Assembly: GCA_021234155.1 (NCBI GenBank)
Contig: JAJEKV010000047.1
Location: forward strand, 1,664,494 to 1,728,493
DNA length: 64,000 bases
Source: Isoetes taiwanensis
Taxonomy: Eukaryota > Streptophyta > Lycopodiopsida > Isoetales > Isoetaceae
Direction of reading: 5' to 3'
The position numbers and the translations under genes are program-made. Position 1 is the stretch's first letter. Each line of letters begins with the position of its first letter. Shown one piece after another: positions 11,055-63,951 of the stretch. Below the pieces are notes generated by a model. That model searched no databases. It was given only the letters and a program-made list of their open reading frames with translations, and had not been told where the DNA came from.

Positions 11055-11088
11055 GGTATTAAATTAGGAGAGGCAACCTTGGGGGGAG

Positions 11089-43366: not shown

Positions 43367-43492
43367 AAAAAATGCAAGATTAAGCCACAATGGAAAAGTC
43401 AGGAACTCCAACAATGTGGATTGACCAATAAAAAAAATGCAAGAATACCCACAAATGGAAAAGTCTAGAACTCGATCTAGGTAACTCGATTA
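43367..43492. repeat. 65-bp direct repeats flanking the CACTA insertion
   Basis: AAAAAATGCAAGA followed by CCACAAxTGGAAAAGTC occurs at 43367 and 43432. The phrase AACTCGATCTAGGTAAC of the second unit recurs just right of the CACTA (near 57023, again after AAAAAATGC). The transposon thus landed in a small tandem array. Confidence 0.65.
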
Positions 43493-43830
43493 CACTAGAA
43501 GAAAACCCCTATGCTTGTAACGCTTTTTGATACGCTTTTTTGAACTAAAAAAATAATATAATATAATTAAAAAATGGCGTTACAATATTGATTTGATACG
43601 CGTTACGAATGATAGGGTCAATTGAAACGCCGTATCAATTTGTAACGCATAACAAGTTTGAAACAGCGTAACGGTTTATAACGATAACACGCTTTGAAAC
43701 GCAGCGTTTCAACTAAAATAAAAAGCGAACGCTGCGTTTCAATATTGAAACGCATTTCAAAGAACAATATTAAATAAAAAAAAAAACCCTTGAAACGCAT
43801 TGCAAGTTCATGAACCGTTACAAAAAAAAA
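43493..43830. repeat. Left subterminal repeat region of the CACTA
   Basis: About ten copies of GAAACGC/GCGTTTC and several GTTAC/GTAAC motifs in both orientations, within AT-rich spacers. It mirrors the right end. Confidence 0.8.
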
Positions 43831-43930
43831 AAATTGGACGAACTTTTATTCATTTTTATTTTCAGATTCTCTAATATAATAACAAAATAAAGCATAACAA
43901 AAACAAAATTTTTTATTAATTCAACAGAAA

Positions 43931-45718
43931 TACAATATTGTTTCAGCAGGCATAGCTGCCTGCTGCACCACTACCATCATGCTCATCATCATAATTTTGA
44001 TGTGCATAAATATCATCTTGTTCAACATTATTAGGTAGATCTTCATTATCAGCTTGTACTTCCATATCATCCAGAAGAAGCAATTGCTCAATGGCCTACA
44101 CAAGAAAATGACATAAAATTAAATTATAAGTTCGTTACTAATTTCATAATCTAGAAAAATTTACCTTTCGATGTCGCTCCTCTACTGGCCAAATGCCATG
44201 CCTTGCTAGATGTTTTTGCATCTTACAGAAGTTGAGAGTACTACTAAGACGAGATTCCTCTTCCGACGGAGGTCGATCATACATTTCATACTATTAAATG
44301 AAAAAAAAAAAGTGTAAGTACATATGTAAATTAGTACAAGATAAAAAATTTGCTAACACGTACAAATCGAGTATGAAATGTAACTTTGCCTCCACTTCCC
44401 GCCGGATTGCCCGGAACTTCCCTTTGCCTATAAATAAAAGAATAAAAATCCAATAAATTTTAACTATAATATAGACTAAGCATAAATTTACATTAAAAAG
44501 AAAAACTCACGTTTGCGCATAACATTGTTGAGCATATTCTACTCTCTCACCCCGTTTCTTCCTTTGTCCCTCTCTCCAAAGGTGTTCCCATGCCTGACGA
44601 TTGTCCTCTAATTGTGGAGGACATGTCGTGATTTTATCCTTGGCGATATCATCAATCAATCTAAATTTAAAAACCCTGTAAAAGTAGTTTTAAATATAAT
44701 TAAAATATGTATTTAAACAAAGTTATAAATTTAACGCACCTAAAAGATCGTCCTATAATCCTCATGACTTCTCTTTTATTCCATCCTTTTCCGTGCCATT
44801 CCTCTAATCTCTCGAAGACCTATATCACACATGTGGAACTTTACGTTTAGCTTGTTAAAAATCATCATTAATAAAAAATTAAAACAACAATTACTTCTTG
44901 CATCAATATGCTCCCTACTCGATGTTTCATGTCCAAATGTGGGTTCTTCCAATATAATACTTCCCTTTGTCGCCCTACTTATATTTTTGAGAATTCCATT
45001 GCACCCGCACCATAAGAAGGACAACCTAAGGAAGTGACCGCCGGTGGAACTACTTTGCCCACGTGATCCCTCTTCAATGATGATGGTATCCCCAGCCGAA
45101 TATTTAAATCGGCCAATCCCGAAAGATAAGCGTACATTGGATGATTAAAAAATCAATAAATAATGTTAGCTTATGACATTACAAATTTTAAGATATGGAA
45201 ATAATGTCTACACTATCCAATATTTAATCTTAAATCCTAACTCGCATATCTTTAAATGCTACAAATTCAATTCCATAAATAACTAAAATGCAAAAATAAG
45301 TACTTACACATGGATACTCAATCGGTCCTTGCTCATCTGCAATTCTACTTCTCCTTCGTCCTGGTCCTCTTCCTTTTCTTGGACCAACTTCTGAGTCTTT
45401 TATATCAACAGATTGAGAATCTCTAAAGGGTGTATGTTCAGAAGTCCCAGCAAGTGGAGTGTTAGAAGGAGTGGGCAAGGAGGTTCTAGTGGCTACGGGA
45501 TGTGACTGTGTGGGAGTGGTAGTGGTAGAAAGAGGACCATAATGATTTATATACCACTGACGATACGTAGCATTCATCATATACGCCCTTCTAATAGTGG
45601 TATTAGGTTCTGCAACCATTACACCTGATGCTCGTAAATGCTCCTCCACTAATCCAGTAAACGTGCTTAAGATAACTTTAATAGCATAAGTGACAGGGTC
45701 CTCCAAGACATCGTCCAT
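43931..45718 (-). CDS. TnpA-type second CACTA protein, spliced
   Basis: Exon 1 (45718 to about 45310) starts MDDVLEDPVTYAIKVILSTF, has a Thr/Ser/Pro-rich middle and a basic patch (GPRKGRGPGRRRSR), ending at donor TGT|GTAAGT. Later minus-strand blocks: GDTIIIEEGSRGQSSSTGG (about 45120-44900), KDKITTCPPQLEDNRQAWEH and LWREGQRKKRGERVEYAQQ (about 44690-44520), VTFHTRFYEMYDRPPSEEE then FCKMQKHLARHGIWPVEERH (about 44430-44165), and an acidic tail (LLLLDDMEVQADNEDLPNN) ending near 43931. The W-xx-LW, Y-E-M and P-x-EE blocks in this order recall plant Ptta/En/Spm (Transposase_24-like) proteins, thought to bind subterminal repeats. Blocks are free of stops, so the gene may be intact; exon borders other than the first are estimated. 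Confidence 0.6.
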
Positions 45719-45861
45719 GTTATTTCCTATGAATGAAACACAATCAATAAGATAAACTTAGTAAAGAAGCTTTTGCCGAACATAATTAATATATATGAAC
45801 TCTAACTCAATTAAACTTAAGCTAAGAGAACCAAAATTTAAGCTTTTTAAGGCTCTATAAT

Positions 45862-46400
45862 ATGATAGAGAGAATTCGTGATAAGACGGCTAAGTTCTTC
45901 AACAATATCAACGGCAGGGATACTAACTGTAAGTCAAACAATTCGGCAGAGTGCAAAGGACCACATGGCGTGAAGAGCACATTCTGGAACTTCAGACAAC
46001 CTTGCAGGAACGTGATTCAGCACTTGAAGCAGCCAATAATCATACTGCTAATTCAGGAATAAAGCTAGACGAAGCAACAAGTTGTATTTCTGACCTGGAA
46101 GTTCAGCTAAGTACATCATTAAGCACAGCTGAACAAGCAGAAAATAAAGCAAAATCACTGAACAAGCCAGAGCTAAGATCACTGAACTTGAATCCCTGCT
46201 TGGAGCATCTAGTGCAGCAGCAGATGAAGCACGGAGTGAGGCAACTGCTTTAAAAGATAAGCTTGATATGGACAAGGCATCCGATTTGGATATGCAGCTA
46301 AGTTCATCGCTAAGTTCATCGTTTTCCAGAGCTGATGAAGCTAATAAAACTGTTGAAGACTTAAAAGCTTATATTACAATAAAGTCCTTGCTCCAGTAGC
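45862..46400 (+). pseudogene. Captured coiled-coil gene fragment
   Basis: Plus-strand heptad-rich frames: ELQTTLQERDSALEAANNHT, CISDLEVQLSTSLSTAEQAE (45951-46200), then in another frame GASSAAADEARSEATALKDK and LDMDKASDLDMQLSSSLSS (46190-46400). The break is near 46190. The orientation is opposite to the transposase genes and the style is that of plant coiled-coil (golgin or filament-like) proteins, so I read it as host sequence captured by the CACTA. The parent gene is not identified. Confidence 0.5.
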
Positions 46401-46426
46401 AAGGATGTCTATTCTATGAGCAATTA

Positions 46427-46693
46427 TTGCAGGGATCTGGTTTAAAAGGACTCTATGGTTTACACAAGCGCCTTAGAGCTGCATGCAAAGATAATAATCT
46501 TTTCTTTGGAAAGGAAAAGATTGATCACGAAGGGAAGGCAAGGAAAGTTAGCTTGGAAGAAATAGCCGGTCTCGAGAACAAGGTTTATAATCAGCAAGTT
46601 CCAAAAAGCATATTGATTTTCAAAGGGCAACTTATTGCAATAGTAGAAGGTAAAGGCTCCAAAATAAAAAGATGGGATAAAAGCAGAGAATAA
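46427..46693 (+). pseudogene. Captured exon-like fragment, unknown
   Basis: An 88-codon plus frame preceded by TTGCAG: GSGLKGLYGLHKRLRAACKD, then KVSLEEIAGLENKVYNQQVP and SILIFKGQLIAIVEGKGSK. It follows the coiled-coil fragment in the same orientation and may come from the same gene. Family not recognised. Confidence 0.35.
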
Positions 46694-46869
46694 AAAGCCT
46701 ATTTTATGAATTACGAGTTTCTTTTTCCCATTCCTAGCATGGAAGTTTATTTTCGAAGGCAGGAGCATCCAGTGCCTTGTGGGTACTCTTCCTCCTCGGC
46801 AAATTTCACGTACCTTACGAAAAAACAAAAGGATCCAACTAAAGAAAAAATCACCCATTTTGTTGAGAG

Positions 46870-47639
46870 AATCGCTCCATAATCCAAGCCATCAAACCCG
46901 GCTTTCTTCCGGCATGATTCAAAGTCTCAAAGAACAATGGAGTTGATCGGAGGCACAAAGCTTAGGATTTCCCACAACACTAAAATTGAAAGTAGTACTT
47001 GACCAGCTAGAAGGAAGACCTCGAGAAAGATCATTATAGGAATGATTGAAAACAAGGAAATATTGAAGATCAAACACCTGCCAAATTCAGTTTGGAACTT
47101 TGCCACTAAGCTGATTATCGAGAAAGATCGAGGAAGGCGAGATGTGCCATGTTTGCTAACGATGGAGGAATCGACGGACAATTGATTATGAGCAAAATCA
47201 AGATCAAGCATTCTGCATTGAGCTGACCAAGTTGCGGAGGAATAGAACCCCACAAAGAGTTGCTATTCAAATACAAACTTTTCGAGAGAAGAGCGGTTGC
47301 CAAGTTCGGGAGGGATACGACCGGAAAAACTATTTTGAGATGCGAGAAAACAAACCCAAGTTAACGAACACGGCCAATCCGAAAGGGAAGAATACCGAGA
47401 GCTTGTTATTGTAAACTTTGAGGGACTGCAAACTCGAAAGCATTGGCAATATCAGAAGTAATACTTCCATCAAACAAATTGTTATGAATCTCAAGAATAG
47501 TCATGTTGGGAAGCCCCCAAATGCCCTTTGGCAAAGAACCCGTGAAGTTGTTATCAGATATTCGAACCCTGATTCCTAGCATATGCAACAGTCTCCTCCC
47601 CTTTCTGATTGATGGCAAAATATTACCAGCATGCTCCAT
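46870..47639 (-). pseudogene. Captured LRR receptor-kinase fragment (CLAVATA/HAESA-like)
   Basis: Minus-strand pieces give leucine-rich repeats: DNNFTGSLPKGIWGLPNMTI, LEIHNNLFDGSI (47639-47406), SKSLYLNSNSLWGSIPPQLG (47303-47115) and at the end SYNDLSRGLPSS followed by VVGNPKLCAS in the next frame (near 46990). This is the C-terminal end of an LRR ectodomain where the ...F-GNPxLC motif precedes the membrane span. The wording resembles subfamily XI receptors for CLE/IDA peptides. Several frameshifts exist and no kinase part follows. Confidence 0.6.
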
Positions 47640-47747
47640 TAAGACTGTAATTTCAGAGTATCAAAGACAAAGTGACGCCACAAGAATTAATATTGAAGCT
47701 GCAATTCAGCTTTTGGCTTCCAATGGCCTTATAATATATCATGCCAG

Positions 47748-47865
47748 AGAGCCTATGCAAAACAGAGAGCCTATGCAAGAAACCAGAGAGCCTATGCAAG
47801 AAACCAGAGAGCCTATGCAAGAAACCAGAGAGCCTATGCAAACAGAGAGCCTATGCAAACAGAAA
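47748..47865. repeat. 21-bp minisatellite inside the CACTA
   Basis: Six to seven tandem copies of GAGCCTATGCAAGAAACCAGA, the outer units shortened by deletion. In the plus frame it encodes repeated REPMQET units within a 145-codon frame (47503-47940), and in the minus frame LHRLSGF units. Coding status is unknown. Confidence 0.8.
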
Positions 47866-47940
47866 CTTACAATTTATAAATCAGGAATTTATGGATCCAC
47901 AGTGATGGGCCTGATGAGCAATCGAGCAAATAAGGGCTGA

Positions 47941-48860
47941 TGTTCCTGCTTCACTATTCTTGCTCCACGGTTCTTCTACGAAATAGAAACATGACCTAAG
48001 TCTGCTGCATGCTGGTCGCTATGTTCGAATGTAAATGAACGATTTGATTTACCTCTTTGAAAAAATCGGTGCGGCGGCTTTGGGAGAAAAAAACGTCCTG
48101 CCTGGATCACAGCCTGCTTCAAACACCTGCAGCGTACATTGTCTTCCCGCCCATTTGCACGCAAGCAATGGGCGCCAAGATTCGATAGAGCAAGAAAAAA
48201 AATTGATTACGAATCAAGGAGTTCAATGGTCGATGCATTGGAGTATTGGAGTTCAATGGTCGATGGTCGATATAGTATTTGGGTGGTCATGCATGCAATG
48301 AATAACGGTTTCAACCGTTAAAAAATGTTTGGTTCTACAATGTATGGCCCTCCAATGTGGCGTAAATATCCATTTACCAAGATTTTTGTCCTCAATTCCG
48401 TATTTTTGGCTGGCTCTCTTATGTTATATTCTTTCTTTTTGGCCCAAGAGCATCCCGTGCGATTCATATTTATTTGGTGTTCAAAAGTGTGCCGCATGCA
48501 TTTATAGGTGTTCTTCCAACCATTTTTGTAGGCATACATACCATTAGGATTTTTTTATTATTATTATAAGTTTGTTCCTCGGGAGAGGATTTGTTTTCTA
48601 AAGAGAATTACATCTATGTTCTTGCAATTAGGGCTATTGAGCAAAAACCTTTAACAACTTCAAAAAACTACTGGTGAAATTTTTGTCTTTGTCTATAAAG
48701 TTTTACATCCACTATCATACAATTTTCGTATAATACAATTCATGCCTACACCTTTCACGCCACCGATACCACAACCACCCATGTTTAGGTGATTTCGGGG
48801 TATGGTATAACCATTAAAGTGACTTCATTAAAGTTACACAATGTTGAACATTAACGTTGT
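47941..48860. other. CACTA interior, no recognisable gene
   Basis: About 900 bases. Contains a short direct repeat (GGAGTTCAATGGTCGATG at about 48218 and 48246). Short frames on both strands (48318-48547) have no motif. Confidence 0.45.
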
Positions 48861-48871
48861 AACTCCATTAC

Positions 48872-51800
48872 ACCGTACAACTGTGCATGCCAGAGGGTTC
48901 CCTCGAGGGTTTGAAGAGAGACCTCAAGAGGGAGAACGAAAAAAAACCCTCCCCATGCACCCGGTTCCAAACTTGCTACATAACGATGGCTAGTAACAAA
49001 AGCCGGACATCGTACAACTGTGCATGCCAGAAGGCTCGAAATGACATTTTGATTGCACGATTGCATCCGAAAGGTCAGAGTTATCCCAGGACACTAGGCT
49101 AGGAGTGCATTGAGCGAAAGGTTGACTAGTTGCCTATAGCAATTTGAGTTTGGCTTTGTTGGTCATAATACCTAGTTCGTACAGTAAGTTGGATGCTTTG
49201 GACTTATGCGCAGAGTTAGAACCCCATTCCGAGCTCGATAGTTTGGCCGAACTGGAGGAACAAGTCATTTTTCCGCCGTGCCCCTATGTCGAGAAAGGGG
49301 AAATTTGGGGATTGGCACATCCGTGTAGTGGATGGCCAATTTTTTTTTCATAGTCATTTCTTGGGACATAAGCTACCATTTGAACGGTGGGATTAACAGA
49401 TAGAGCTGTTTTGATTCCACGATAATTAAACCCTATTAAATCTGTAGGTTTTAGTATTTGGCAGCCTTCTCCACCTCTGAAGTTGTTGAGAGCTTGCATG
49501 CAGGGTTTCCTCGAGGTTTTGAAGATAGACCTCAAGAGGGAGAACGAGAAAACCCTCCCCATGCACCGGTTTCAAACTTGCCACGCAATGGCTAATAACA
49601 AGTTGGACATCGTACGACTGTGCATGCCAGAAGGCTCGAAATGAGAGTTCGATTGCACGATTGCATCCGAAAGGCCAGAGTTATCCTAGGGCACATGGTT
49701 GCGAAGTAGACAATCGATCAAATATCCAGATCACCAAATACATACTATCTTTAGACTATAGCACTAGGCTAGTTGTGCATTGAGCGAAAGGTTGACTAGC
49801 TGCCTATAGCAATTTGAGTTTGGCTTTGTTGGTCATAATACCTGGTTCCTATAGTAAGTTGGATGCTTTGGACTTATGCGCAGAGTTAGAACCCCATTCC
49901 GAGCTCGATAGTTTGGCCGAACTGGAGGAACAAGTCATTTTTCTGCCGTGCCCCTATGTCGAGAAAGGGGAAATTTGGGGATTGGCACATCCATGTGGTG
50001 GATGGCCAATTTTTTTTTTCAGGGTCATTTCTTGGGACATAAGCTACCATTTGAACGGTGGGATTAACAGATGGAGTTGTTTTGATTCCCCGATAATTAA
50101 ACCCTATTAAATCTGTAGGGTTTAGGATTTGGCAGCCTTCCCTACCTCTGAAGTTGTTGAGAGCTTGCGTGCAGGGTTCCCTCGAAGGTTTGAAGAGAGA
50201 CCTCAAGAGGGAGAACGAAAAAACCCTCCCCATGCACCAGTTCCAAACTTGCCACGCAACGATGGCTAGTAACAAGCTGGACATCGTACGACTGTGCATG
50301 CCAGAAGGCTCGAAATGACATTTGGATTGCACGATTGCATCCGAAAGGTCAGAGTTATCCCAGGGCACATGGTTGCGAAGTAGACAATCGATCAAATACC
50401 CAGATTACCAAGTACATACTATCTTTAGACTATAGCACTAGGCTAGGTGTGCATTGAGCGAAAGGTTGACTAGCTGCCTATAGCAATTTGAGTTTGGCTT
50501 TGTTGGTCATAATACCTGGTTCCTATAGTAAGTTGGATGCTTTGGACTTATGCGCAGAGTTAGAACCCCATTCCGAGCTCGATAGTTTGGCGAACCGGAG
50601 GAACAAGTCATTTTTTCTAGTGCCCCTATGTCGAAGAAAGGGAATTTGGGGATTGGCACATCCATGTGGTGGATGGCCAATTTTTTTTTTTTCAGATCAT
50701 TTCTTGGGACATAAGCTACCATTTGAGCGGTGGGGATTAGCAGATGGAGTTGTTTTGATTCCCCGATAATTAAACCCTATTAAATCTATAGGGTTTAGGA
50801 TTTGCAGACCTTCCCCACCTCTCAAGTTGTTGAGAGCTTGCATGCGGGGTTCTCTCGGGTTTTGAAGATAGACCTCAAGAGGGAGAACGAAAAACCCTCC
50901 CCATGCACCGGGTTTCAAACTTGCCCGCAATGGCTCGTAAACAAAGCGTGACATCGACATCGATGCATTTGTGCATGCGAAAGGCTCGAAATGACAGTTC
51001 GATTGCACGATTGCATCCGAAAGGTCAGAGTTATCCCACGGCACATGGTTGCGAAGTAGACAATCGATCAAATACCCAGATTACCAAGTACATACTATCT
51101 TTACACTATAGCACTAGGCTAGTAGTGCATTGAGCGAAAGGTTGACTAGTTGCCTATAGCAATTTGAGTTTGGCTTTGTTGGTCATAATACCTGGTTCCT
51201 ACAGTAAGTTGGATGCTTTGGACTTATGCCCAGAGTTAGAACCCCATTCCGAGCTCGATAGTTTGGCCGAACTGGTGGAACAAGTCATTTTTCCGCCGTG
51301 CCCCTATGTCGAGAAAGGGGAATTTTGGGGATTGGCACATCCATGTGGTGGATGGCCAATTTTTTTTTTCAGGATCATTTCTTGGGACATAAGCTACCAT
51401 TTGAACGGTGGGATTAACAGATGGAGTTGTTTTGATTCCCCGATAATTAAACCCTATTAAATCTGTAGGGTTTAGGATTTGGCGACCTTCCCTACCTCAC
51501 GAAGTTGTTGAGAGCTTGCGTGCAGGGTTCCCTTGAGGGTTTGAAGAGAGACCTCAAGAGGGAGAACGAAAAAACCCTCCCCATGCACCAGTTCCAAACT
51601 TGCCACGCAACGATGGCTAGTAACAAGCTGGACATCGTACGACTGTGCATGCCAGAAGGCTCGAAATGACATTTGGATTGCACGATTGCATCCGAAAGGT
51701 CGAAGTTATCCTGGGGCACATGGTTTCCGGTAGACAATCGATCAAATACCCGTTACCAAGTACATACTATCTTTACACTATAGCACTAGGCTAGGAGTGC

Positions 51801-52597
51801 ATTGAGCGAAAGGTTGACTAGTTGCCTATAGCAATTTGAGTTTGGCTTTGTTGGTCATAATACCTGGTTCCTACAGTAAGTTGGATGCTTTGGATTTATG
51901 CCCAGAGTTAGAACCCATTCCGAGCTCGATAGTTTGGCGGCCTGGTGGAACAAGTCATTTTTCCGCCCGTGCCCCCTATGTCGAAAAAGGGAAATTTGGG
52001 GATTGGCACATCCATGTGGTGGATGGCCAATTTTTTCAGGATCATTTCTTGGGACATAAGCTACCATTTGAGCGGTGGGATTAACAGATGGAGTTGTTTT
52101 GATTCCCGATAATTAAACCCTATTAAATCTGTAGGGTTTAGGATTTGGCACCTTCCCTACCTCTGAAGTTGTTGAGAGCTTTGCGGGGTTCCCTCGAGGG
52201 TTTGAAGGGAGACCTCAAGAGGGAGAACGGAAAAACCCTCCCCATGCACCGGTTCCAAACTTGCCCACTTTATAGCGATGGCTAGTAACAAAATTTGGAC
52301 ATCGTCTCGACTGTGCATGCCAGAAGGCTCGAAATGACATTTGGATTGCACGATTGCATCCGAAAGGTCAGAGTTATCCCAGGGCACATGGTTGCGAAGT
52401 AGACAATCGATCAAATACCCAGATTACCAAGTACATACTATCTTTACACTATAGCACTAGGCTAGGAGTGCATTGAGCGAAAGGTTGACTAGTTGCCTAT
52501 AGCAATTTGAGTTTGGCTTTGTTGGTCATAATACCTGGTTACTACAGTAAGTTGGATGCTTTGGACTTATTCCCAGAGTTAGAACCCCATTCCGAGG
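48872..52597. repeat. ~672-bp tandem array, about 5.5 units, in the CACTA
   Basis: The phrase TGCATTGAGCGAAAGGTTGA starts at 49106, 49776, 50450, 51126, 51798 and 52469, giving periods of 670, 674, 676, 672 and 671 bp. Units are highly similar; differences are mostly one- to few-base indels. Each unit has a plus frame (MSLALLVIIPGSYSKLDALD, about 70-98 codons) and, in some copies, a minus frame up to 169 codons. The array breaks off at CATTCCGAG and within a few bases the transposase C-terminal region begins. The monomer is not recognised. Confidence 0.88.
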
Positions 52598-55205
52598 TAT
52601 AAGTTGTTCCCTTGTTGTATAGCCTACCGTCACACTCATCAGGTGCTAGAAGCTTCAATTCTTCTTTATCTCTTGAGTTCAGATAAGGACAAACTGCAAA
52701 TCTACAATCTTGAGCAATCCAACCCTCGGCCATGCTCCCTTCAGGTCTTGCTAATTGACGAACAAAATCTTTGAGCACCTTCATAAATCGTTCGAGGAAA
52801 AACATCCATCGATATGATACTGGACCAGCCCACTCGATATCATCGACAAGATGAACAATTAAATGCACTTGGATGTCAAAAAGCTAGTGGGAAATCGTTT
52901 TCAAATAAGCACAATACTTCAAATACTAATTCTCTCATTCCTGGTAGGTCATTGACGGTAATCTCCCTCAATGACAACCACCTACAACATGGTATAACAT
53001 CAACATAAGTGAATTATTAACCATGAGAAGGTACAAGTGCTATACCTGCATAGTTTGGCTAGCTTGAAGATGGGTTCACAAATGTTTGAAGGTAGAGTAC
53101 CTGGTAGAACAATTGGCAAGTACTCCTACATGCAAGAAAGAGTGAATTTAAAAACAAACATCAATGAGTATAATAAGTGTGCATAACTTACCTCTAGTAA
53201 CTTGTGAAAGTCATGTGACTTGAGTCCTTGGAGCTTACCATCCTTTGTGCAACATTTGCATGGAAGAGGAGTAACCAGGTTAGATGCGTAGTGATTTTAA
53301 CGAAGCACACACCTTTTGATAGTCACCCTTTAGAACTTATGGAGGTGGTTTGTTTGATCTCATCCAAGCACATTGTGCAGGCTTGACTTGAAGTTGGTCT
53401 GCCCTTGCTCCTTCAGTGTCTTTCTCTCCCGTAATGTGTTTCCATATTGATTCTGACACATTTTTTATTATGTGCATGGGATCTAATAGGCTCGTGAACT
53501 TTAATTCGGTCCAATATGGCAATTGATAAAATCTTGAAAGCCACTTCATACCATCGGGAGGATCCATCACAATATCATCAGGTCCTTCACATACCCCCTC
53601 ATTGAATGCATCAATTCATGCTTTCTCTTCAACATTATTCCACAACTTAAACCAATCTTTTGAGGTCATTGACTTTTGTGGCACGTTGCTTTCAACTCTT
53701 CTCGACCTCAATGGATGATGTTCTGGAAGAAATTTATCGTGACCCTCAAAAACCATCTTCCTCATTTCTTTGGAGTAACGAGCCGTAACCTTCTCACCAC
53801 AACGCACACAGGCACACTTGCCTTTTGTTTGGAGTCCTACACTGCAATGTAAGGTCTTAAAAATGTTGTATCCACAACCACGTCAAATTGTAAATGGCTA
53901 TTTAACCACGCACCTGTACATACGGTGAGGCCTGGGTAGTCATGCATTGTCCACATCAAAATACCCCTCAAAATGAAGTTTTGTCCCGTAAATTTTGTCC
54001 TAGAAGCATCAACCATTGGCACTCCATCCCATAGTTGTAGAAGCTCATCAACTAACGGAGAAAGGTACACATCAAAATTCGTTGGTTGGGAAGGCCCCAA
54101 TGTTAGTCGATTTCAAAAAGATATTAAATTTATATTAAAGCAAATACCTGGAATGATCATGACCAACATTATGTGGCTACGCTTTATGGATTCATCTGGC
54201 GGAATATTGTAATTTACAAGCATTCGCGGCCGGAGGTTGACCAAGAGGCTCGTTGTGAAAATGGATTGAAGCCATCTGTTACCAACCCCATACTGAATGT
54301 GCCTAGGTTCGAGTTGCAAAATCGCACCATGTCTCCTCTATAAATTTCCATGCCCTAGAATCTGCAGGATAACGCATAATCCCGTCCTTGCTACGATGGT
54401 GTGCATGCCATGTCATGAGAGCAGCCTTTTCTTTCATTCTAAACATGTGCTTCATCTTTGGAATGATAGGAAAGTAACGTAATACTTTAGCGGGGACTTT
54501 ATCACTCAAAATCCATCCTTATACCTTCTTGATCCACATATGGGGCAAATCGGGTATAGTCCTTATTATCTTTATAATATAAAATGCATTCATTAGGACA
54601 CACGTGAATGCTTTCATACTCAAAACCAAGTGCCTTGATTAGTTTGCGTGCATCTTGCCGACTTTTAGGCATGTTATTTCCTTCTGGCAATAATTTTCCT
54701 ATGAACCTGCATTCTATATATTAGTAGATAATACAAAACTATGAGAATGGACACAAAGGAAGAGAGATGTACTTGAGTATAGCGTCAATAGCTATATTGG
54801 ATATCTTGTACTTGAGCTTGAATCTTTGAGTATTGATAGATTGACCGACAACCGCGATATTGTACAACCTTCATATAATTTTGCTGAAGCCTCCTTCATG
54901 ATGTATTCATCAACATATTGTGTTGGATATTCTTGGTCATTATTGTCATTAGTTGCATTCTCATGATGCTCCATATGTGTGTGTGTGTTCACATCTTCCA
55001 TGAGTTGCTCAAAAGTTGCAAAATCTTCTATAAGGTTGCGTGCAGTCTCATCATATGCATTGTCAATAGTAGCTGGTTCATCTCTTGCATTCTCAATTAA
55101 TGGTGGATTAGGTCTTTGGCTTCGAATAATCACTGGATTTTCCTTTATGATCTTATCTTTCGATGCAAGTTGTTTTGCAGACATTCGATGCCCATCCTCT
55201 CTCTT
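52542..55205 (-). CDS. TNP2-type CACTA transposase, main exons
   Basis: Minus-strand blocks in order: acidic region and KLYEGCTISRLSVNLSILK (55184-54840), NIAIDAILKYIS (shifted frame), MPEGNNMPKSRQDARKLIKA (54690-54502), VPAKVLRYFPIIPKMKHMFR and KDGIMRYPADSRAWKFIEET (54509-54303), LVNYNIPPDESIKRSHIMLV (54319-54113), NFDVYLSPLVDELLQLWDGV (54100-53837), EGHDKFLPEHHPLRS (53807-53616), FYQLPYWTELKFTSLLDPMH and IIKNVSESIWK (53570-53337), and the DUF4218 block MHLIVHLVDDIEWAGPVSYR (52868-52542). This is the full TNP2 (Transposase_21) layout that cuts element ends. Frame changes between blocks may be introns or lesions. Some blocks lack conserved residues, for example Cys pairs after the CPN motif, so activity is doubtful. 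Confidence 0.85.
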
Positions 55206-55457
55206 AAAGTAATAAGATTGTTAGTACATAATACTAATATGAAACCCAAAGACCAATAAGTTTTTCAATTTATAGTGGATAATTAAGACGTTGCATAGCG
55301 ATATGAAAGCTAACATACATATCAAACATAATACACATTATTCTAAAACTCAAAGTATTAAAGATTTAAAAAGACATGACAAGATGTAAGACACCAAGTC
55401 CTTCATTACACTAAAGCTTTAGAATCAAGTTTAGTTCACAATTGATAACTTGGTTTT

Positions 55458-56042
55458 TCAATCACTAACAAATTGTGGAGGAACATCTGTTCGTATTGGA
55501 TAGTCTAGAATCAACTCTTCACCTTTGAAAAGACTTCTTATAGCCATCACCATGACAAAACTATGACATTTTCCTGCCATATAAGGTTCTTGGTCATTAT
55601 TTCTTTCTTCAAACACACAATTCACTAGAGTTTTATTCCCTCCGCAACTATTGATTAATCCTGCTATATTTCCATGTTCTTAAATTGGACCATTAATATA
55701 GGTCCTTAAATTGTCCTCTTGTACTCCACTCATCTCCATGGAAGCTGCATTGTTATTACATCCATACACCATCATACGGAATGAGTATTGTGTCAATTTC
55801 TCCCACTCAGCTGACTTGTAAATAGGACCTCCATATATCATCAGTGACACCTCTCCATTGTAAGGAACCTTTACATCATTTAGAACAAATAAGCCTCTAC
55901 CAGCACCTGAGATTGTAGAATCTTTAATCATATATCTATTACTCCAATAAGAGAATATTTGACTTGTAGACGACAATGGCTCTTCACATAATCCAAGGCG
56001 CCTTCGATTAGCTTGCTTTAGCATCTTAACATCTAAAGGCAT
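55458..56042 (-). pseudogene. SET-domain (histone methyltransferase-like) frame inside the CACTA
   Basis: A 194-codon minus frame (MPLDVKMLKQANRRRLGL... to TGA at 55458) with one in-frame TAA at 55680-55682. It has the SET-domain landmarks in order: MIKDSTISGAGRGLFVLNDV (about residues 38-57), YNGEVSLMIYGG, GNIAGLINSCGGNKTLVNC (about 125-143), VMVMAIRSLFKGEELILDYP. These correspond to the AGRGLF, GNxxxxxNHxxxxN and GEELxxDY motifs that bind S-adenosylmethionine and lysine. The usual NHSC is here NSCGG, so catalysis is uncertain. Upstream frames (DNVESRCRARMHTL, LACSQ) may extend the N-terminus with shifts. It lies between the first exon and main exons of the transposase, same strand. A captured host gene or a spliced accessory domain are both possible. 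Confidence 0.72.
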
Positions 56043-56317
56043 GGATAAATTAGGCCTGAGAACAAGCTAAAGACAATTCATACTTCCCCATCATAGAGGC
56101 ACACAATGTATGCATGCGAGCACGACATCTAGACTCGACATTGTCTTTGAGTCCACCTCATCATCTTCTTCAGAAATATTTATCGAAACACCTTTTGAAA
56201 AACTAATATGACATAATTGAGTTGCACTTGTGATGTGATGTTATATGTCAAACACCATTACATAGAACTTAAAGGGAATAAAAATATGAAAGCAAATAAA
56301 CTTAACCATATACTAAC

Positions 56318-56587
56318 CTGTCCAGAAGTGGAATGATAGGGCAGGTTATGCTGCTTGCAAAAACTCTCTGGAGCACACCAAGATGGACCAACTTTTTGTA
56401 GATGATCTGCTATAACCATTGGTATCCGTTCATGTCGACCGCAACAATCTCTACACCAACAAGGTGAGAATTGGCCCGCATAACTCTCCCTTGGAAGAAT
56501 TGGTTGTTCTATTCCTTGTTTACGTAGCTCACGAGCCCTTCTCTTCCTCGTAGAGGCAGATAACCCAGCCAGGGGATCGCTTTGCAT
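56318..56587 (-). CDS. First exon of the CACTA gene: zinc-finger-like transposase-associated domain
   Basis: Starts MQSDPLAGLSASTRKRRARE and contains FSPCWCRDCCGRHERIPMVI then ADHLQKVGPSWCAPESF. The CxCxxC ... HL ... G pattern resembles the N-terminal transposase-associated domain of TNP2 proteins. It ends at a donor (GGACAG|GTTAGT). The ATG lies about 100 bases inside the subterminal repeats, as expected for a transcript initiated in the element's right end. Whether it splices to the SET frame, to the TNP2 exons, or to either, cannot be decided from sequence. Confidence 0.55.
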
Positions 56588-56689
56588 GTTGGAGCTGATT
56601 CTAAGAAGAAAGAAATCGCGAATTCAACAGAGGAAGGCGGCGCTGATGCTGAGAAACAAAGAAATAGAATAATTCAAAAGTTTTTAGAA

Positions 56690-56993
56690 CGTTATCTTTT
56701 GTAACGTAAGGGTCAGTTGTAACGCATTTCAACATCTAGCTTGAAACGCGTTTCAAAGTTGTAACGCATTTAATTTGTAACGCGTTTCAGAGGAGTTGTA
56801 ACGCATTTCAAACTTCCACTTTGAAACGCGTTTAAGAGTTGAAACGATATTTGTTTGTAATGCATTTCAAACATATTTGTAACGTGTTAGAAATGGATTT
56901 TGTTCTTTGTTACGCGCTACAACTAACTTTGCGTTTCAAAGTTTTAAAGCGTTACTATTAGAGCGTATCAAACCCCCCTAAATTCTATTAGTG
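56690..56993. repeat. Right subterminal repeat region of the CACTA
   Basis: Dense copies of GTAACGCATTTCAA, TTGAAACGCGTTTCAA and GTAACGCGTTTCA in both orientations, ending CTATTAGTG. As the upstream side of the transposase gene it probably also holds the promoter. Confidence 0.8.
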
Positions 56994-56996
56994 TTA

Positions 56997-58129
56997 GTGA
57001 ATAGATCAAATGTAAAAAATGCGAACTCGATCTAGGTAACATGATGAGTAAATTGATCATTCCGAAAATATCCCCTGATCTTATGCAATTCTTGATCAAG
57101 TAGACTTTGAACATGCCCGTATATTATGTTAGATTATTGTGATTAAGATCCAATCTTAACCACTGAACAACTTCAACATTGAAATAGCATTTTTTCTTAC
57201 TTAATGAGGATTTATTTAAATGTTCACTTCTTTTTTATACAGTGAGGTAGCATTCTCTAACATGATACTCGCAATTGATCAAAATCTGACCCCATTTTGA
57301 GATACTCGAAATAACATTCGATTTTCTTTAATATGATGGCAAAGCATTATGGTTTGAGATCCGGCTGGAAATGGTTTTCACATTGGTGCCAAGTTGACAC
57401 AAATTCCCTGATAATAAACTTAGAAAAAGAGAAATATTCGCGGCGGTCTTGCCACCGCGATAAATTTCTTATATATATGATTACTCGAGGAAAAAAAATA
57501 ATTTTCAGGCCAAAAAAATATAAAAATAAATATTCCAGGCAAAAAAAAATCTAAAAAAAATTACATTTGGTACCTGGAAGTGTTTTCCCGCCAAACAAGT
57601 CTAGTGGCTACAAAACGTGCCCAATCCTGCCTCTACCACCGATCCTTTCTTTTCTGAACTTCTTTGCATTTTTTTGTTGTTTTGTCTTAATCCAAAGACA
57701 ACATCATCTCTGCAAGCTTAATTTTGTTGAAGTGGTGTACTTTCTTTGAAGGGATTGACGTTCCAATAATTCTTTACCTTGCTTGGTTTCATGTCGAATG
57801 CTTTAAAAGGAACGCATGTTTCTGTAACAAAATCATATCCATTTTCAATTGCTGGAAGATAATTTGAGATGCATCATACTACATCAACTTATTCTTCTAT
57901 GCCAGAGGTAGACACATCTAGGTAAATCTAACGAATTCATAAGATCCTTAAAAGAAAGGGTCTTGCATATGCCACTATGGAGAAAGCCAAAATATACATG
58001 GGTCAAGTGGTTTCCCCTTAAAAGAGGACGACAAATGATACAACATATCCCCACAAGGAGGCAGAGCTTGTTCAACCTGCAATGCATCTTTGGCATTTGA
58101 TGAACCTGTTCTGGCATGAGAGCTGGTAG
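56997..58129. other. No recognisable gene
   Basis: AT-rich sequence between the CACTA and the copia element with long A runs (57490-57560). It holds one GC-rich palindrome at 57431. A minus frame near 58117-57884 shows no motif. Confidence 0.5.
57431..57468. repeat. GC-rich palindrome, copy B
   Basis: 38 bases: GAAATATTCGCGGCGG, TCTTG loop, CCACCGCGATAAATTTC. Related to copy A at 40272 in both arms (GAAAT.TTCGCGGCGG ... CCGC.AT..ATTTC). Confidence 0.6.
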
Positions 58130-58596
58130 TGTTGGAATAAGTTAGATCATTGTGTAATATTGCTTCATACACTAACTCAATATTTTAATGGCATTGAGGA
58201 AATATTTCAATGGTTAAGTTATGAAGCAATATAAGCGACTCTAAATATTTCTACATTAGGGTCGGATGTGCTGGCCATTTATCCTAGAGCCAAGTCCCAT
58301 TTTGAATCTCGGTTATGGCTTAACCGCCGGATCCTGCCAGGTCGGTTGCATAACCGACGGACTCATGCATTATAAAGCTGTAGAACTGTGAGAATTGATT
58401 GAACGATCGATTCTGCAGTAGATAAACTAAGGAGAAGTTATTTCTAATGGTATCTGTATTTGATCGAAATGATATAATGGTTGTGTAATGTTTCATGTGT
58501 ATTGATCAACCATTGAAATTGTGGTAACTTCTAATGAAATAGAGATATCAATGTTATTTAGTTGATTATCAGAGTAAATTTCTATAAGATCTAACA
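58130..58596 (+). repeat. 5' LTR of the copia element
   Basis: 467 bp, TG...CA ends, nearly identical to the 3' LTR (475 bp) with a few small indels, suggesting a fairly young insertion. Confidence 0.92.
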
Positions 58597-58598
58597 AT

Positions 58599-58610
58599 TG
58601 GTATCAGAGC
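58599..58610 (+). other. Copia primer binding site (tRNA-iMet)
   Basis: TGGTATCAGAGC, two bases after the 5' LTR, complementary to initiator tRNA-Met. Confidence 0.92.
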
Positions 58611-58622
58611 AGGATATCTTAA

Positions 58623-59546
58623 ATGGCCAGTAGACTTGGAGCATCTCTTCTCAGTGCCATTGATGTGTTCAAAAGTGGTGCAGGATTCCAGGTATGGAAA
58701 CAAAAGGTTCAAGAAGTTCTAGAGATTGAAGGATTGTGGGATTTAGTTACAGGAGAAGAACAACCTGTAACTTAAGAATTCAGCCCAATTAAAGGGAAGA
58801 CATATGCAGATGCAACTAGTGGAGGTAGTTCAACTGGAGAAGCAGTTGGTAGAGGAGCTTCTAGTATCTCTGAAAGAACTAGCAGCTCAAGTATGGAAGC
58901 ATCTACAAAATCACGCTTGTTGGAGGCAAGAAGTGTGATAAGCAGCAAGGTGAGTTCGAGCATTCTGCTACAGTTAAGGGGAAAGACTCCAAAACAGATG
59001 TGGGAGTTTATGTTGGCAAATTATGAGAAGAAAACCTCTTCTCAACTAGATGTACTGGAAAAGGAGCTTAGGAGGCTCAAATATAATGAAAATGATGACC
59101 TTGTGGAATTCTTTCAGAGATTTGACAATCTCATAGCAGATTTGGATGTTGCAAGAGCTCCAATCACAAATGAATATCAGGTATTATCACGAGCATTTTC
59201 TAATTTTGACCATTTGTCTACACTTGTGAGAAATGTAGCTAAGGACAAGAGGCAAGCAGAGACTATGGTAAGAACTGAGCTTGAACAAAAAGGAGTGATT
59301 GAAGATGATGAGCACACTGAACTTTTGTATGCAGGAGGGCGAGGAGACAAAGGTAAGGTTGGACCTTGCTATTTGTGCAATCAATATGGTCATATAAAAG
59401 TAAATTGTCCTAAAAGAACCAAAGAAAATAGATGTTATAACTGTGAAGGTTTTGGGCATATTGCTATCAATTGCTCCTCTCCTAAGGATCAGGGGAAAAG
59501 TAAAGGCAGGGATACTGGTTCAGCCAAGGGAAAAGGCTATATATAA
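58623..59546 (+). pseudogene. Copia gag, one nonsense codon
   Basis: Frame from ATG at 58623 (MASRLGASLLSAIDVFKSGA). A TAA at 58773-58775 (codon 51) interrupts it, then the same frame continues to 59546. The middle carries the UBN2-type capsid region (TPKQMWEFMLANYEKKT, LDVLEKELRRLKYNENDDL). Two CCHC zinc knuckles follow: CYLCNQYGHIKVNC and CYNCEGFGHIAINC. Two knuckles are somewhat unusual for copia gag, which usually has one. The pol frame is entered by a shift near 59537. Confidence 0.85.
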
Positions 59547-60180
59547 TACAAGAGGAGGCAGCTATAGGGGCAGAGGAACTTACAAAAATAAAGGGAAAGC
59601 CACTGTTGTCAATGTAGCAAGAGAAACTGAAGAAGAACTAGAAGAGGAGGTGGACGAAAATGCTGAGGTAAAAGTCTGTCAAGCTTTTTCAGTTTCAGAA
59701 AAACAAACTAAAGATGATGATGGTTTATTTATCATAGATAGTGGAGCTGAAAGAAGCGTAATAAAGTCTACTTCTAGACTTAAGGAGAAAACTAGGAGGA
59801 ACTCTAGTTTTGTTCAAATGGGTGATGGGAAGCTAGAAAAGGTTGAAGAAGCTGGATTTCTGGAATTATATGATTTGGAAGGAAATCGAGTTATGCTTGA
59901 CAATGTCTTATGTGTTCCAAATATTGTCAAGAATCTTATTTCTGTGACTCAGCTAGTAGACCTTGGATATGAAGTCCATTTTGATAAACTCAATTGTAGT
60001 ATTTTGATGAATAATGAAATAAAGTTCTTGGGTAAACGTGTTGGCAAACTTTTTGGATTCCATAATGACATTTCTGGAGTAGTAAATGCAGTGACAGTAC
60101 CAAATGTTAAAATGTGGCATGAAAGGCTTGGGCATACTTATGCAAACAATATTAACTATATGATCAAGAAGAAGAAGAAG
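59540..60180 (+). pseudogene. Copia protease and pre-integrase region
   Basis: Plus frame with aspartic-protease motif GLFIIDSGAERSVI, then FVQMGDGKLEKVEEAG and VPNIVKNLISVTQLVD, leading to the integrase zinc-binding start MWHERLGHTYANNINYM. The frame is cut at 60168-60192 by the SINE-like insertion and its AAG-repeat tail. Confidence 0.85.
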
Positions 60181-60285
60181 AAGAGATTTTAACGTCACGC
60201 CACAAGGCAGCATCCTATCGGACATGTGACACTTTACAACACACCCAGATGGGTCCTGCCCCCACCACTTTTTGCTGAAGTGGGC
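60168..60285 (-). mobile_element. SINE-like insertion in the copia integrase
   Basis: An (AAG)n run followed by ATTTTAACGTCACG and AACACACCCAGATGGGTCCT, the reverse complement of the element at 3985-4170. It separates the HHCC half-motif (LGH side) from the CNGC side of the integrase zinc finger. Confidence 0.65.
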
Positions 60286-61130
60286 TTAATTATTGGAGTA
60301 GAAACAAATGATGATCATTTTAAGTGTAATGGCTGCTTATTAGGAAAGCATAGCAGACTGCCTTTTCCAAAACATGCAAAAAGAGCAAAAGCAATTTTGG
60401 GAATTGTACATAGTGGTCTATGTGTTCCACTAAATGTGAGAAGTATTCATGGGAAAAGGTATTTTATAACCTTTATAGATGATTACACGAGGAAGACAAA
60501 AGTATACACACTAAGATCTAAAGATCAAGCCTTTGAAGCATTCAAACTCTTCCAAGCTGAGTAGAGAGACAAACAGGTAAAAAGATCAAGTGTTTAAGAA
60601 CTGACAGGGGTGATGAGTTTGTTTCTTGCAGATTCAACAGATATTGTTTACACAATGGAATAAGAAGACAACTTACTTGTTCACATACCCCTCAGCAAAA
60701 TGGAGTTGCTGAAAGGAAGAATCGATCCATCTTAAATGCAGTGAGAGCCATCGAGAAGTCTCAATGGAGAATTACCTGATCATTTGTGGTATGGTACTTA
60801 TCCCTCATTTGAATCATTCAGAGTTTATGGATGTGCTGGATATGCTCATGTGCTAGAAGAAACCAAAAGAAAACTAGATGGCAGAGCATGCTTGGACTAT
60901 TTAGTTGGTTAATTATGATGAGCAAGCAAAGGGGTATTTGTTATATGAACCCATTAAAAGGAAACTAATTCTAAGCAGGGATGTAACCTTTGATGAGGGG
61001 ACACTTTATAGAAATAGAAAGGAAGCTTTAGAGAAAGTAATTATCAAATCAAATCATAGTGATGATGAAAAGAAATTGTCTGGTTTGAATTATGACAAAT
61101 TCCGATGAAGAAGAAGATTATGTACAACCA
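60286..61130 (+). pseudogene. Copia integrase, broken
   Basis: HFKCNGCLLGKHSRLPF completes the zinc finger. The first catalytic motif reads HSGLCVPL where copia elements have HSDxxGP, so the catalytic Asp is replaced by Gly. Then FITFIDDYTRKTKVYTL. A stop at 60562 follows; in other frames TDRGDEF (second Asp) and TPQQNGVAERKN (Glu) are readable around 60605-60720. Further down, NYDEQAKGYLLYEP belongs to the integrase C-terminal part (60905-61108). Confidence 0.8.
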
Positions 61131-61357
61131 AGAGAAAAATCGAGGAGCATGTGGAAGGTACAGATTTTGATAATAAATCGATAGCCATGAAGAAGTTATA
61201 GAACATGAGAACAGACCCGGAAGAGGGAAGAGGAAGGCTGATCTAAACATTGAAACCCATTCCTTCAATTATTTGGAAGAGGAGAAGAGGGAAAAGCAAA
61301 AAGACTCTTGTAAATGAAATTGAATTAGATAATACATGGCAATACTAGAAACCTAAT

Positions 61358-62700
61358 GTGCCCGCTAACTATGAGGAAGCAATAAATGCAATAGACTCAA
61401 AAGAATGGCAGAAAGCCATGAAAGAAGAGATGAATGCCTTTGAAAGAACCTGCACTTATGAAATAGTTAAGAAACCTCAAGGCAAGAACATTGTAGAAAA
61501 TAAGTGGATTTATAAACTCAAGTCCTTCTTCAGATGGCAAAGGGCAAAAGTATAAAGCCCTTCTGGTATTTTTGGGCTTTTCACAAAAGAAAGGGGTGGA
61601 TTATGATGAGACATTCTCACCAATAGTCAAGTTATCCAGTATACGTATGCTACTTGCCTTTGCTAATGCTAGAAATCTGGAAATACATCATATGGATGTA
61701 AGTACTGGCTTTTTAAATGCCAAACTAGATGAAGAAATCTTCATGAAACCACCAAAAGGGTTTGAAGCAGGGAATGACATGGTATGGAAACTTTTAGAAT
61801 AGCCATAGTCGGTCATATCCCACCGCTTGCTTTGCCACTCCCCCCAAACTGGCGGCATTGCAACTCTCAAGCAAGTAGAAGTACCTCCGCCCACCGGGCA
61901 ACCCCACTATACATATACAACACTTCTTTGTCCCCAAACCACCAAAAAGGGTTTTAAGCAGGGAATGACATAGTATGGAAACTAAATAGAGGCGTGTATG
62001 GCTTGAAACAAGCCCCTAAATCGAAAACTATATCTGCATGGATGAATATCTTAGAGAGAAGGACTTCTCAAAGTTACAGACTGATGGAAATATTTATGTT
62101 TTAAGACAAGGAGATGAATTTTTGTATTATTGCATTGTATGTAGATGGCTGCATTATGATTGCTAATACTATGACTTGCTTAAATAAATGCAAAACAAAA
62201 TCTTAAAGACAATTTAAAATGACAAATTTAGGAGAACTCCAAAAATTCTTAGGAATTGAAGTGCACATAGATCGAGCTAATATAAAGTTCATATCTTACT
62301 TGTGACTTCAAATATACAAGGCATGTTGAAAAGGTTTGCATGGAATCTTGCAAATCGATGGATACCCATTAGTTCCCGGACATAAGATTTCAGGAGGATA
62401 TGTGCCCTAAAACAATAAAAGAATCGAGGATATGGAAGGCACCCTTACAAAGAGTTGATTGGATGTTTTCTCTATATATCTAAGCACAAGGCTCTTTCAT
62501 TGCATTTTTGTAGGCACATCCCCAGATATTCAAACAATCCGAGAGAAAATGCATTGGATGGCAGCAAAAAGAGTGCTAAGGTTCCTTAAAGGAACTCAAG
62601 AACAAGGTATTTGTTACTCTAATGATAACATGACACTCATAGGATATTGTGATCTGTTGGGCATCGATTTAGGCTTTTAGAAAATCAACTTCTGGATTTT
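61358..62700 (+). pseudogene. Copia reverse transcriptase, broken
   Basis: EAINAIDSKEWQKAMKEEMN and NIVENKWIYKLK (61358-61555), KGVDYDETFSPIVKLSSIRM and HHMDVSTGFLNAKLDEEIFM (61572-61802). A 191-bp disruption follows (separate entry). Downstream a degenerate YxDD region (VDGCIMIAN-like, near 62140) and KRVLRFLKGTQEQGICY (62459-62680) are visible in changing frames. Confidence 0.82.
61746..61983 (+). repeat. 47-bp direct duplication enclosing 143 bp of foreign filler
   Basis: AAACCACCAAAAGGGTTTGA ... ATGGTATGGAAACT at 61746-61792 is repeated at 61936-61983 with four small changes. Between them (61793-61935) lies GC-richer sequence (CCACTCCCCCCAAACTGGCG, CGCCCACCGGGCAACCCC) unrelated to RT. 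Confidence 0.75.
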
Positions 62701-62759
62701 TTCTCTTGCTTGGTGGAGGGTCAGTTGCATAAAAATCCAAGAAGCAATCAAGTATTGCC

Positions 62760-63101
62760 ATGTCTACAGCTGAGGCAGAATATGCTGCCACTACTCTTGC
62801 AGCCAAAGAGATTATATGGGCCAGAAGGATATTAAATGAGCTTGGAATTATGCAAAATGATCCAACTATATTACTGTGTGACAGTCAAAGCTGTATAGCT
62901 ATTACTAGAAATCCAGTTCTTCATCAAAGAACTAAACACATTGAACTCAACATGCACTTTATAAGAGAAATGGTGGCTCAAAAGAATATTGTAGTTGAAT
63001 ATGTAAGCACACAAGAACAGGCAGCTGACATTTTTACTAAGGCATTGACACAAGTCAAGTTCAATAAATTTAAACAAGTACTTGGTGTTACAGTTCAGTA
63101 G
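62760..63101 (+). pseudogene. Copia RNase H
   Basis: MSTAEAEYAATTLAAKEIIW, LLCDSQSCIAITRNPVLHQR, TKHIELNMHFIREMV and ADIFTKALTQ: the complete, in-frame C-terminal RNase H of copia polyproteins with its D-E-D residues. It ends at a TAG before the PPT. The domain is intact but has lost its upstream frame. Confidence 0.88.
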
Positions 63102-63463
63102 GAGATATTGAGATACTGGCTTATAGAAATGCCGAACAAGCAATAAACAACCATTTCTGGCTTCGGTAATACTAGCAAAAGGTTCTCAATCTATCGATTG
63201 CATTGTACGCATATTTGTTAAGGAAGGTTGTTTATCATCAAAAACAAACTCAAAAAAAGTTTTTATTTTACATGCATATGAAATAGAGAACATAAGCGAT
63301 GAATATAACCAAGAGGGAATACATATCGAAAAACAAAGGTTCGTGAGTCGTTGACACGTAAGAAAAACTCATTTAGAGGAGGAGATCAAATTACCAATAC
63401 ACATGAGTATAGATGTGTATTTAAGTTGATTGAATTATATCGGACTTATTTGACCTCGGTGTA
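63102..63463. other. Copia 3' untranslated region
   Basis: About 360 bases from the RNase H stop to the PPT. No ORF or motif noted. Confidence 0.6.
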
Positions 63464-63476
63464 GATCAGAGGGGAA
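63464..63476 (+). other. Polypurine tract of the copia element
   Basis: AGATCAGAGGGGAA immediately before the 3' LTR start TGTTGG. Confidence 0.85.
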
Positions 63477-63951
63477 TGTTGGAATAAGTCGGATCATTGT
63501 GTAATATTGCTTCATACACTAACTCAATATTTTAATGGTATTGAAAAATATTTCAATGGTTAAGTTATGAAGCAATATAAGGGACTCTAAATATTTCTAC
63601 ATTAGGGTCATGTGATGGCCATTTATCCCGGAGCCAAGTCCCATTTTGAATCTCTGTTATGGCTTAACCGCAAAGTCGGGATCCTCGCTAGGTCGGTTGC
63701 ATAGCCCGGCGGACTCATGCATTATAAAGTCACCAGAAAAGCGTGAGAATTGATTGAACGATCGATCCTGCAGTAGATAAACTAAGAAGAAGTTATTTCT
63801 AATGGTATATGTATTTGATTGAAATGATATAATGGTTATGTAATGTTTCATGTGTATTGACCAACCATTGAAATCGTGGTAACTTCTAATGAAATAGAGA
63901 TATCAATGTTATTTAGTTGATTATCAGAGTAAATTGCTATAAGATCTAACA
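63477..63951 (+). repeat. 3' LTR of the copia element
   Basis: 475 bp, begins TGTTGGAATAAGTCGG and ends GATCTAACA, followed by the GGTAG target duplication. Confidence 0.92.

Follow-up and report, generated by a model that had tools for sequence, protein, structure and literature searches.

DNA transposons carrying a SET gene have been described in the oomycete Phytophthora, among HarbingerS and MuDR elements (Kojima and Jurka, 2014, cited in PMC12730594), and fungal EnSpm elements, along with other transposons, carry a TET/JBP dioxygenase which the author of that account thinks serves escape from silencing (PMC12730594). As far as the Phytophthora elements are described there, the element reported here, a CACTA transposon of the quillwort Isoetes taiwanensis, resembles them in being a DNA transposon with a SET histone-methyltransferase gene beside the transposase, but they belong to other superfamilies and to an oomycete host, whereas ours combines a TNP2 (Transposase_21) transposase with CACTA ends in vascular plants. 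With the fungal elements, to the extent that the same text presents them, it shares the presence of a chromatin- or DNA-modifying enzyme in some members of EnSpm/CACTA, although their enzyme is a methylcytosine oxygenase rather than a SET protein and their hosts are fungi rather than plants. A literature search on SET in transposons, with subscription papers and Repbase reports largely outside its range, returned no CACTA element with a SET domain, which leaves such an absence unproven. With the elements described below, the DNA transposons that carry SET, so far Harbinger and MuDR elements of oomycetes, would come to include CACTA elements of a lycophyte and ferns, and transposon-borne chromatin-modifying enzymes may represent a direct counter-strategy to epigenetic silencing.

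The maize En/Spm element produces tnpA and tnpD from one transcript by alternative splicing. It has CACTA ends, a TNP2-like transposase and subterminal repeats, as does the Isoetes element, for which two-product splicing is deduced from intron phases only; it differs in lacking SET, its second product being the DNA-binding TNPA. SETMAR, a primate host fusion gene derived from a mariner insertion, likewise has SET and transposase sequences at a single locus, but it is a host fusion, whereas in the present case SET is the element's own gene, and a simple SET-transposase fusion is excluded because the SET exon ends in a stop codon.

The window, that is, the whole stretch of 64,000 nucleotides analysed (positions 1,664,494 to 1,728,493 of contig JAJEKV010000047.1, assembly GCA_021234155.1), contains one such element (Table 1). 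Its terminal repeats start at 43493 on the plus strand and at 56993 on the minus strand; compared over 60 bases, the two ends agree only in the first few bases and at scattered positions, and 17 of the 19 matches to the subterminal motif in the window lie near them. The TNP2 exons, encoded on the same strand as SET, match Transposase_21 (E=5.4e-15 and 3.3e-8) and DUF4218 (E=7.1e-21). Terminal repeats, a 3-bp target site duplication (TSD), TNP2 and subterminal repeats identify the element as CACTA/EnSpm, and no Harbinger transposase family occurs among the Pfam matches of the scanned frames of the window and of its relative L001 (see below), whose transposon matches were to Transposase_21, DUF4218 and DUF4216. 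On the minus strand, the Cys-rich exon is followed by the SET exon and then by the TNP2 exons, an arrangement that upholds the initial annotation, made from the letters of the window, of a SET-like frame inside a CACTA transposon between a zinc-finger-like first exon and TNP2 exons of the same strand. The first exons of the window element and L001 share a CWCR-x-C-x-G motif, and their local alignment scores 52, against no more than 46 in 500 shuffles.

Table 1. Parts of the CACTA element in the window (positions are those of the window).
Feature	Position	Strand	Remarks
CACTA element, 13,501 bp	43493..56993	minus	CACTA and TTA at both ends, subterminal motif; 5' end at 56993
TSD TTA, 3' side of element	43490..43492		
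TSD TTA, 5' side of element	56994..56996		
5' end with subterminal repeats	56693..56993	minus	first 35 bases the same in other subfamily-A copies
Cys-rich (zinc-finger-like) first exon	56318..56587	minus	phase 0 end, GT donor (by eye)
SET exon remnant	55458..56227	minus	start approximate, by homology; continuous frame 55461-56042; TAA at 55680-55682
TNP2 exons, degenerate	52545..55220	minus	Transposase_21, DUF4218; interrupted repeatedly by stops and frameshifts
3' end with subterminal repeats	43493..43900	minus	last 408 bp of the element; 40 matches in the host genome

The 194-codon minus-strand frame at 55458-56042, broken by a single TAA, contains SISGAGRGLF, GNIAGLINS and GEELILDY in this order, as initially described. 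When the stop is replaced by X or Q, SET is the sole Pfam family reported for it (E=0.0013, 19.6 bits; second reading E=0.00071, 20.4 bits), at scores beneath the curated cut-off of 22.4 bits for this family (PF00856), which is exceeded by the related protein P0001 (24.3 bits) and by L001 (27.0 bits). Of the two halves of the frame, which the initial annotation proposed to check against SET, the part after the stop matched this family (E=0.026), and for the part before it Pfam returned no match. A protein search with the 194-aa frame as sole query gave 24 candidates, none at E<=0.01. A longer query, joining the first exon to the window frame, retrieved P0001 at E=3.2e-31 (45% identity over 160 aligned positions), and a profile of the window sequence and P0001 gathered 32 proteins at E<=0.1, P0001 counted in; 28 of these 33 sequences, the window included, match Pfam SET at E<=0.1. 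Given this match rate and the identity to P0001, the frame is more than a chance resemblance. A profile search of the PDB gave weak matches to MLL SET domains (best E=6.4e-4). Structure prediction from the single sequence was useless (pLDDT 31.2) and a model from the 33 sequences was of low confidence (pLDDT 42.6); Foldseek with the latter found 332 matches at E<=10 and 13 at E<=0.001, and the best 50 of the 332 are, to judge from their titles, entries with SET methyltransferases. NCBIfam has no family for the frame, Rfam gave nothing at gathering thresholds and scans of viral contigs revealed no relative.

Of the 44 columns conserved at 90% or more among relatives, the window copy retains 35. 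By eye, the homologous exon probably starts at about 56227, upstream of the continuous frame; there the window copy is disrupted in its reading frame and does not retain the acceptor present in relatives. What the frame represents is the decayed SET exon in one copy of a long-kept module, and this copy is no longer able to make a SET protein. In place of the capture of a chromatin modifier by the element, which had been suspected initially, stands a SET module that is old in the lineage and was not captured singly by the window element.

In the assembly from which the window derives (1,658,258,908 bases in 1110 contigs), the window SET has at least 152 matches, fragments counted (1106 candidates, 150 of them scored). 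We inspected 38 loci, namely the 30 best-scoring, which run from the window itself (L012) to L041, and eight distant ones picked by hand (L042-L049). A Cys-rich exon lies upstream of SET in 34 and TNP2 downstream in 28; both are present in 26 loci and at least one in 36, always on the SET strand and in no case on the opposite one. Neither part was found within 1.5 kb at L025 and L042. Fifteen control pieces, comprising 14 from the window outside the element and one from its neighbour, gave no match with the main query set, to which the control run was confined, whereas extra queries were also used on the 38 loci.

The 5' end of the element was identified in 20 of the 38 loci, 897-1242 bp upstream of SET, and falls into three end families, within each of which the 3-bp flanks all differ. 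Nine 3' ends could be paired with subfamily-A SET loci of known 5' end (12 such loci; the window, L014 and L034 are outside the pairing), and eight of the nine elements are bounded by identical 3-bp flanks (AGA, TCG, AGC, TTG, TTA, GCA, TAT and CAA), with no matching TSD at L038. These duplications imply that SET moves inside whole elements; the eight TSD-matched elements span 7.5 to 33 kb, later insertions perhaps counted in. For L029 and L027, a 3' end with matching TSD was not found in about 10 kb downstream. As a separate observation, three SET matches, all on the minus strand, lie about 8.2 kb apart at G000:C1032 (9697413, 9705658 and 9713863), possibly through tandem duplication of part of an element.

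Of the 39 core SET frames, taken from the 38 loci plus L001, 26 run without interruption for 150 aa or more, and dN/dS (omega) was computed from these 26, the window copy excluded, by Nei-Gojobori counts with Jukes-Cantor correction. Synonymous divergence is saturated in 125 of the 325 pairs. The median omega is 0.509 at dS <0.3 (45 pairs), 0.146 at dS of 0.3-1 (nine pairs) and 0.189 at finite dS >=1 (146 pairs); medians between subfamilies range from 0.087 to 0.322 where defined, five subfamily pairs being wholly saturated. Within subfamily A the value is 0.52, as expected for young, partly decaying copies. For TNP2, measured in nine loci with nine others skipped owing to stops or short matches, omega is similar or slightly lower (0.117 against 0.139 for SET between subfamilies B and C, and 0.062 against 0.109 within E). 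Between subfamilies, SET is under purifying selection near the level of the transposase. The initial annotation had asked whether the SET frame was common to other CACTA copies, uninterrupted and constrained; it recurs in many copies, is uninterrupted in the 26 frames just named and is constrained between subfamilies. The outcomes named there as refuting, absence of a SET match or a frame confined to one neutrally evolving copy, did not occur. Some copies are recent: L028, L029 and L041 differ from each other by a dS of about 0.01 or less, which points to recent spread.

A scan of genome contigs yielded one relative, L001 (CAKZGI010000455.1, 9,076 bp), which is filed in an uncultured Trichormus metagenome-assembled genome (MAG) but is plainly eukaryotic and has a TNP2 gene with an intron. 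Trichormus is a symbiont of Azolla, and for this reason we take L001 to be Azolla DNA. The CACTA ends of the contig lie at 68 and 8935; its other parts are a Cys-rich exon that resembles PF13963 under the cut-off (E=0.0072), an uninterrupted SET exon, and Transposase_21 (E=1.1e-62), DUF4218 and weak DUF4216 matches, ordered as in the window. Its flanking triplets, CTA and ATG, do not match. Of 163 codons compared between the window SET and L001, 73 differ at position 1, 51 at position 2 and 92 at position 3. In a second contig of the same bin, TNP2 follows the 3' part of SET, and the longest DNA match of this contig to L001 is 81% identical. From the standpoint of the bin, L001 and L009 are probably Azolla transposon contigs that contaminate a cyanobacterial (Trichormus) MAG. 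Another fern is represented by P0010, named in its source as the SET domain-containing Ceratopteris richardii KP509_03G089000.

We built a tree from 29 SET proteins, drawn from 15 of the 38 loci, from L001 and, for the remaining 13, from the 32 database proteins. In it, Ceratopteris and four database rows join L001 in one clade (100/99), and the Isoetes rows form two, the mutual order of which is without support; six database rows stand apart and two are unplaced. SET goes with this CACTA lineage in a lycophyte and in ferns, a distribution which both vertical descent and plant-to-plant transfer would fit. P0021-P0026 and P0028-P0032, mostly from JGI and ENA sources and including one cluster of 71 members, constitute a separate SET subgroup far from the fern and Isoetes rows.

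By eye, the first exon ends in phase 0 in L029, L045, L014 and L001, the SET exon of the same four can start in phase 0 and has a stop codon at its end, and the TNP2 exon starts in phase 0 in L029, L045 and L001; L027, L044 and L015 were also inspected, with readings that are not settled. Because all of these junctions are in phase 0, a single donor can serve the SET and TNP2 acceptors. Alternative splicing to a zinc-finger-SET or a zinc-finger-TNP2 product is accordingly the likely mode of use as judged from exon phases, in keeping with the early proposal that the SET frame might be used by splicing. A single pre-mRNA would have two alternative fates at this donor. If splicing leads into the SET exon with its terminal stop, the first exon would become part of a short zinc-finger-SET protein; if it skips SET and leads into the TNP2 exon, the transposase would result. 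Through the shared first exon, the SET protein might then be brought to the ends of its own element or to the transposase complex. There it might methylate a lysine, with a histone as the most likely substrate, and such methylation could protect the expression or mobility of the element from silencing by the host; these last three steps are the weaker part of the proposal. Taken as a whole, we consider it probable that this is a CACTA lineage with SET as a regular part, two splice products and a putative anti-silencing function. In L048 (G000:C1056:12395000-12398500), the first exon and SET occupy one open frame of 427 aa, so that there the intron could also be read through.

The motifs of the SET domain bear on what the protein might do. 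The GxG motif, the motif Asn and the last Tyr are all present in the window SET; the last Tyr is kept in 29 of the 29 relatives with a letter at that site and the Asn of the third motif in 31 of 32. By contrast with this retention, NHSC is absent, its His being replaced in all 32 relatives, by Ser in 30 and by Asn in two, and intact copies read INSCG, INSSRG or INSTRP at the site. The NSCGG of the window, initially read as a possible sign of lost or changed activity, is hence a trait of the family and no loss in the window copy, given that none of the 32 relatives has NHSC. Nonetheless, the replacement of this His throughout the family would also suit a functional element SET that has a non-histone target, for example TNP2, or is a binding-only fold, and that acts in transposition rather than in silencing. 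A resemblance to the PR domain (PRDM2_PR, matched by nine of the 33 family sequences, the window and the 32 proteins) points in the same direction, as does the first exon, which seems to serve the transposase as well; the PR domain is a SET variant, and PR-type SET domains likewise lack NHSC. Set against this are the conserved Tyr and Asn and the finding that the nearest solved relatives by profile are, weakly, histone methyltransferases, and we regard a non-histone or binding-only role as unlikely, though the strongest of the competing readings.

Less probable still in our view is that a functional SET restrains the element, placing repressive marks on the copies of that element and so holding their number to what the host tolerates. 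Selective retention would look identical under such self-restraint, which would, however, be harder for selection acting on the element to maintain. Our placing of an anti-silencing role above either self-restraint or a non-histone target is of low certainty. The many uninterrupted SET copies in one plant genome, the repeated layout and the transposase-like selection make it testable whether an element writes a histone mark of its own.

A fragment of a host SET gene caught once by the window CACTA and carried as a functionless passenger is very improbable. In favour of it, CACTA elements are known for acquiring fragments of genes, the window frame is interrupted by a stop and disrupted farther upstream, and the window element also holds an LRR-like piece, but such a passenger would not recur in many copies of several subfamilies and with the same layout in a fern contig, nor show purifying selection and mobility of whole elements. 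The genome-wide matches, between-subfamily selection and TSD-flanked whole elements rule out one-off capture. Least credible of all is a host SET gene family that merely neighbours CACTA elements, for which the SET at the end of the 831-aa open frame of L025, with CACTA parts not nearby, might speak, but which conflicts with the fixed order and strand of the parts, the position of the 5' end at 897-1242 bp from SET in 20 of the 38 loci, the TSDs outside the whole unit and the grouping of L025 in the tree among mostly element-borne SETs; for subfamily A, the TSDs enclosing SET rule it out.

L025 (1-2085, continued by L050 2082-2492, G000:C1042) is of interest in its own right. Its C-terminal SET is 65% identical to the window SET, and its N-terminal part has no Pfam or PDB match. 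Judged by its reading frame, it is possibly a domesticated fusion and represents a candidate case of a SET domain that passed from an element into another gene. We tentatively entertain, with rather less than even confidence, the fuller scenario of an early-vascular-plant CACTA lineage, now seen in quillwort and ferns, which would have long carried its own SET, spliced to the exon that starts the transposase, as a self-targeted anti-silencing writer, and would have passed it on to the L025 frame.

Several other features of the window deserve mention. Inside the CACTA element, a unit of about 671 bp is repeated in tandem at 48891-52623, in five to six copies that are mostly more than 90% alike, and the array extends into the terminal part of the last TNP2 frame; LRR-like coding pieces at 47118-47660 on the minus strand (best LRR_1 E=3.4e-4) are perhaps a captured gene fragment. 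Next to the 5' end of the element, direct repeats, each about 470 bp long and 92% alike, lie about 5.35 kb apart and delimit an LTR retrotransposon at 58125-63951 with copia-like frames inside (by eye). Elsewhere, a 1275-aa frame with endonuclease, reverse transcriptase and zf-RVT at 7236-11063 (minus) belongs to an intact-looking LINE, and a dirigent-like coding frame is located at 36999-37463 on the minus strand (Pfam E=1.3e-12).
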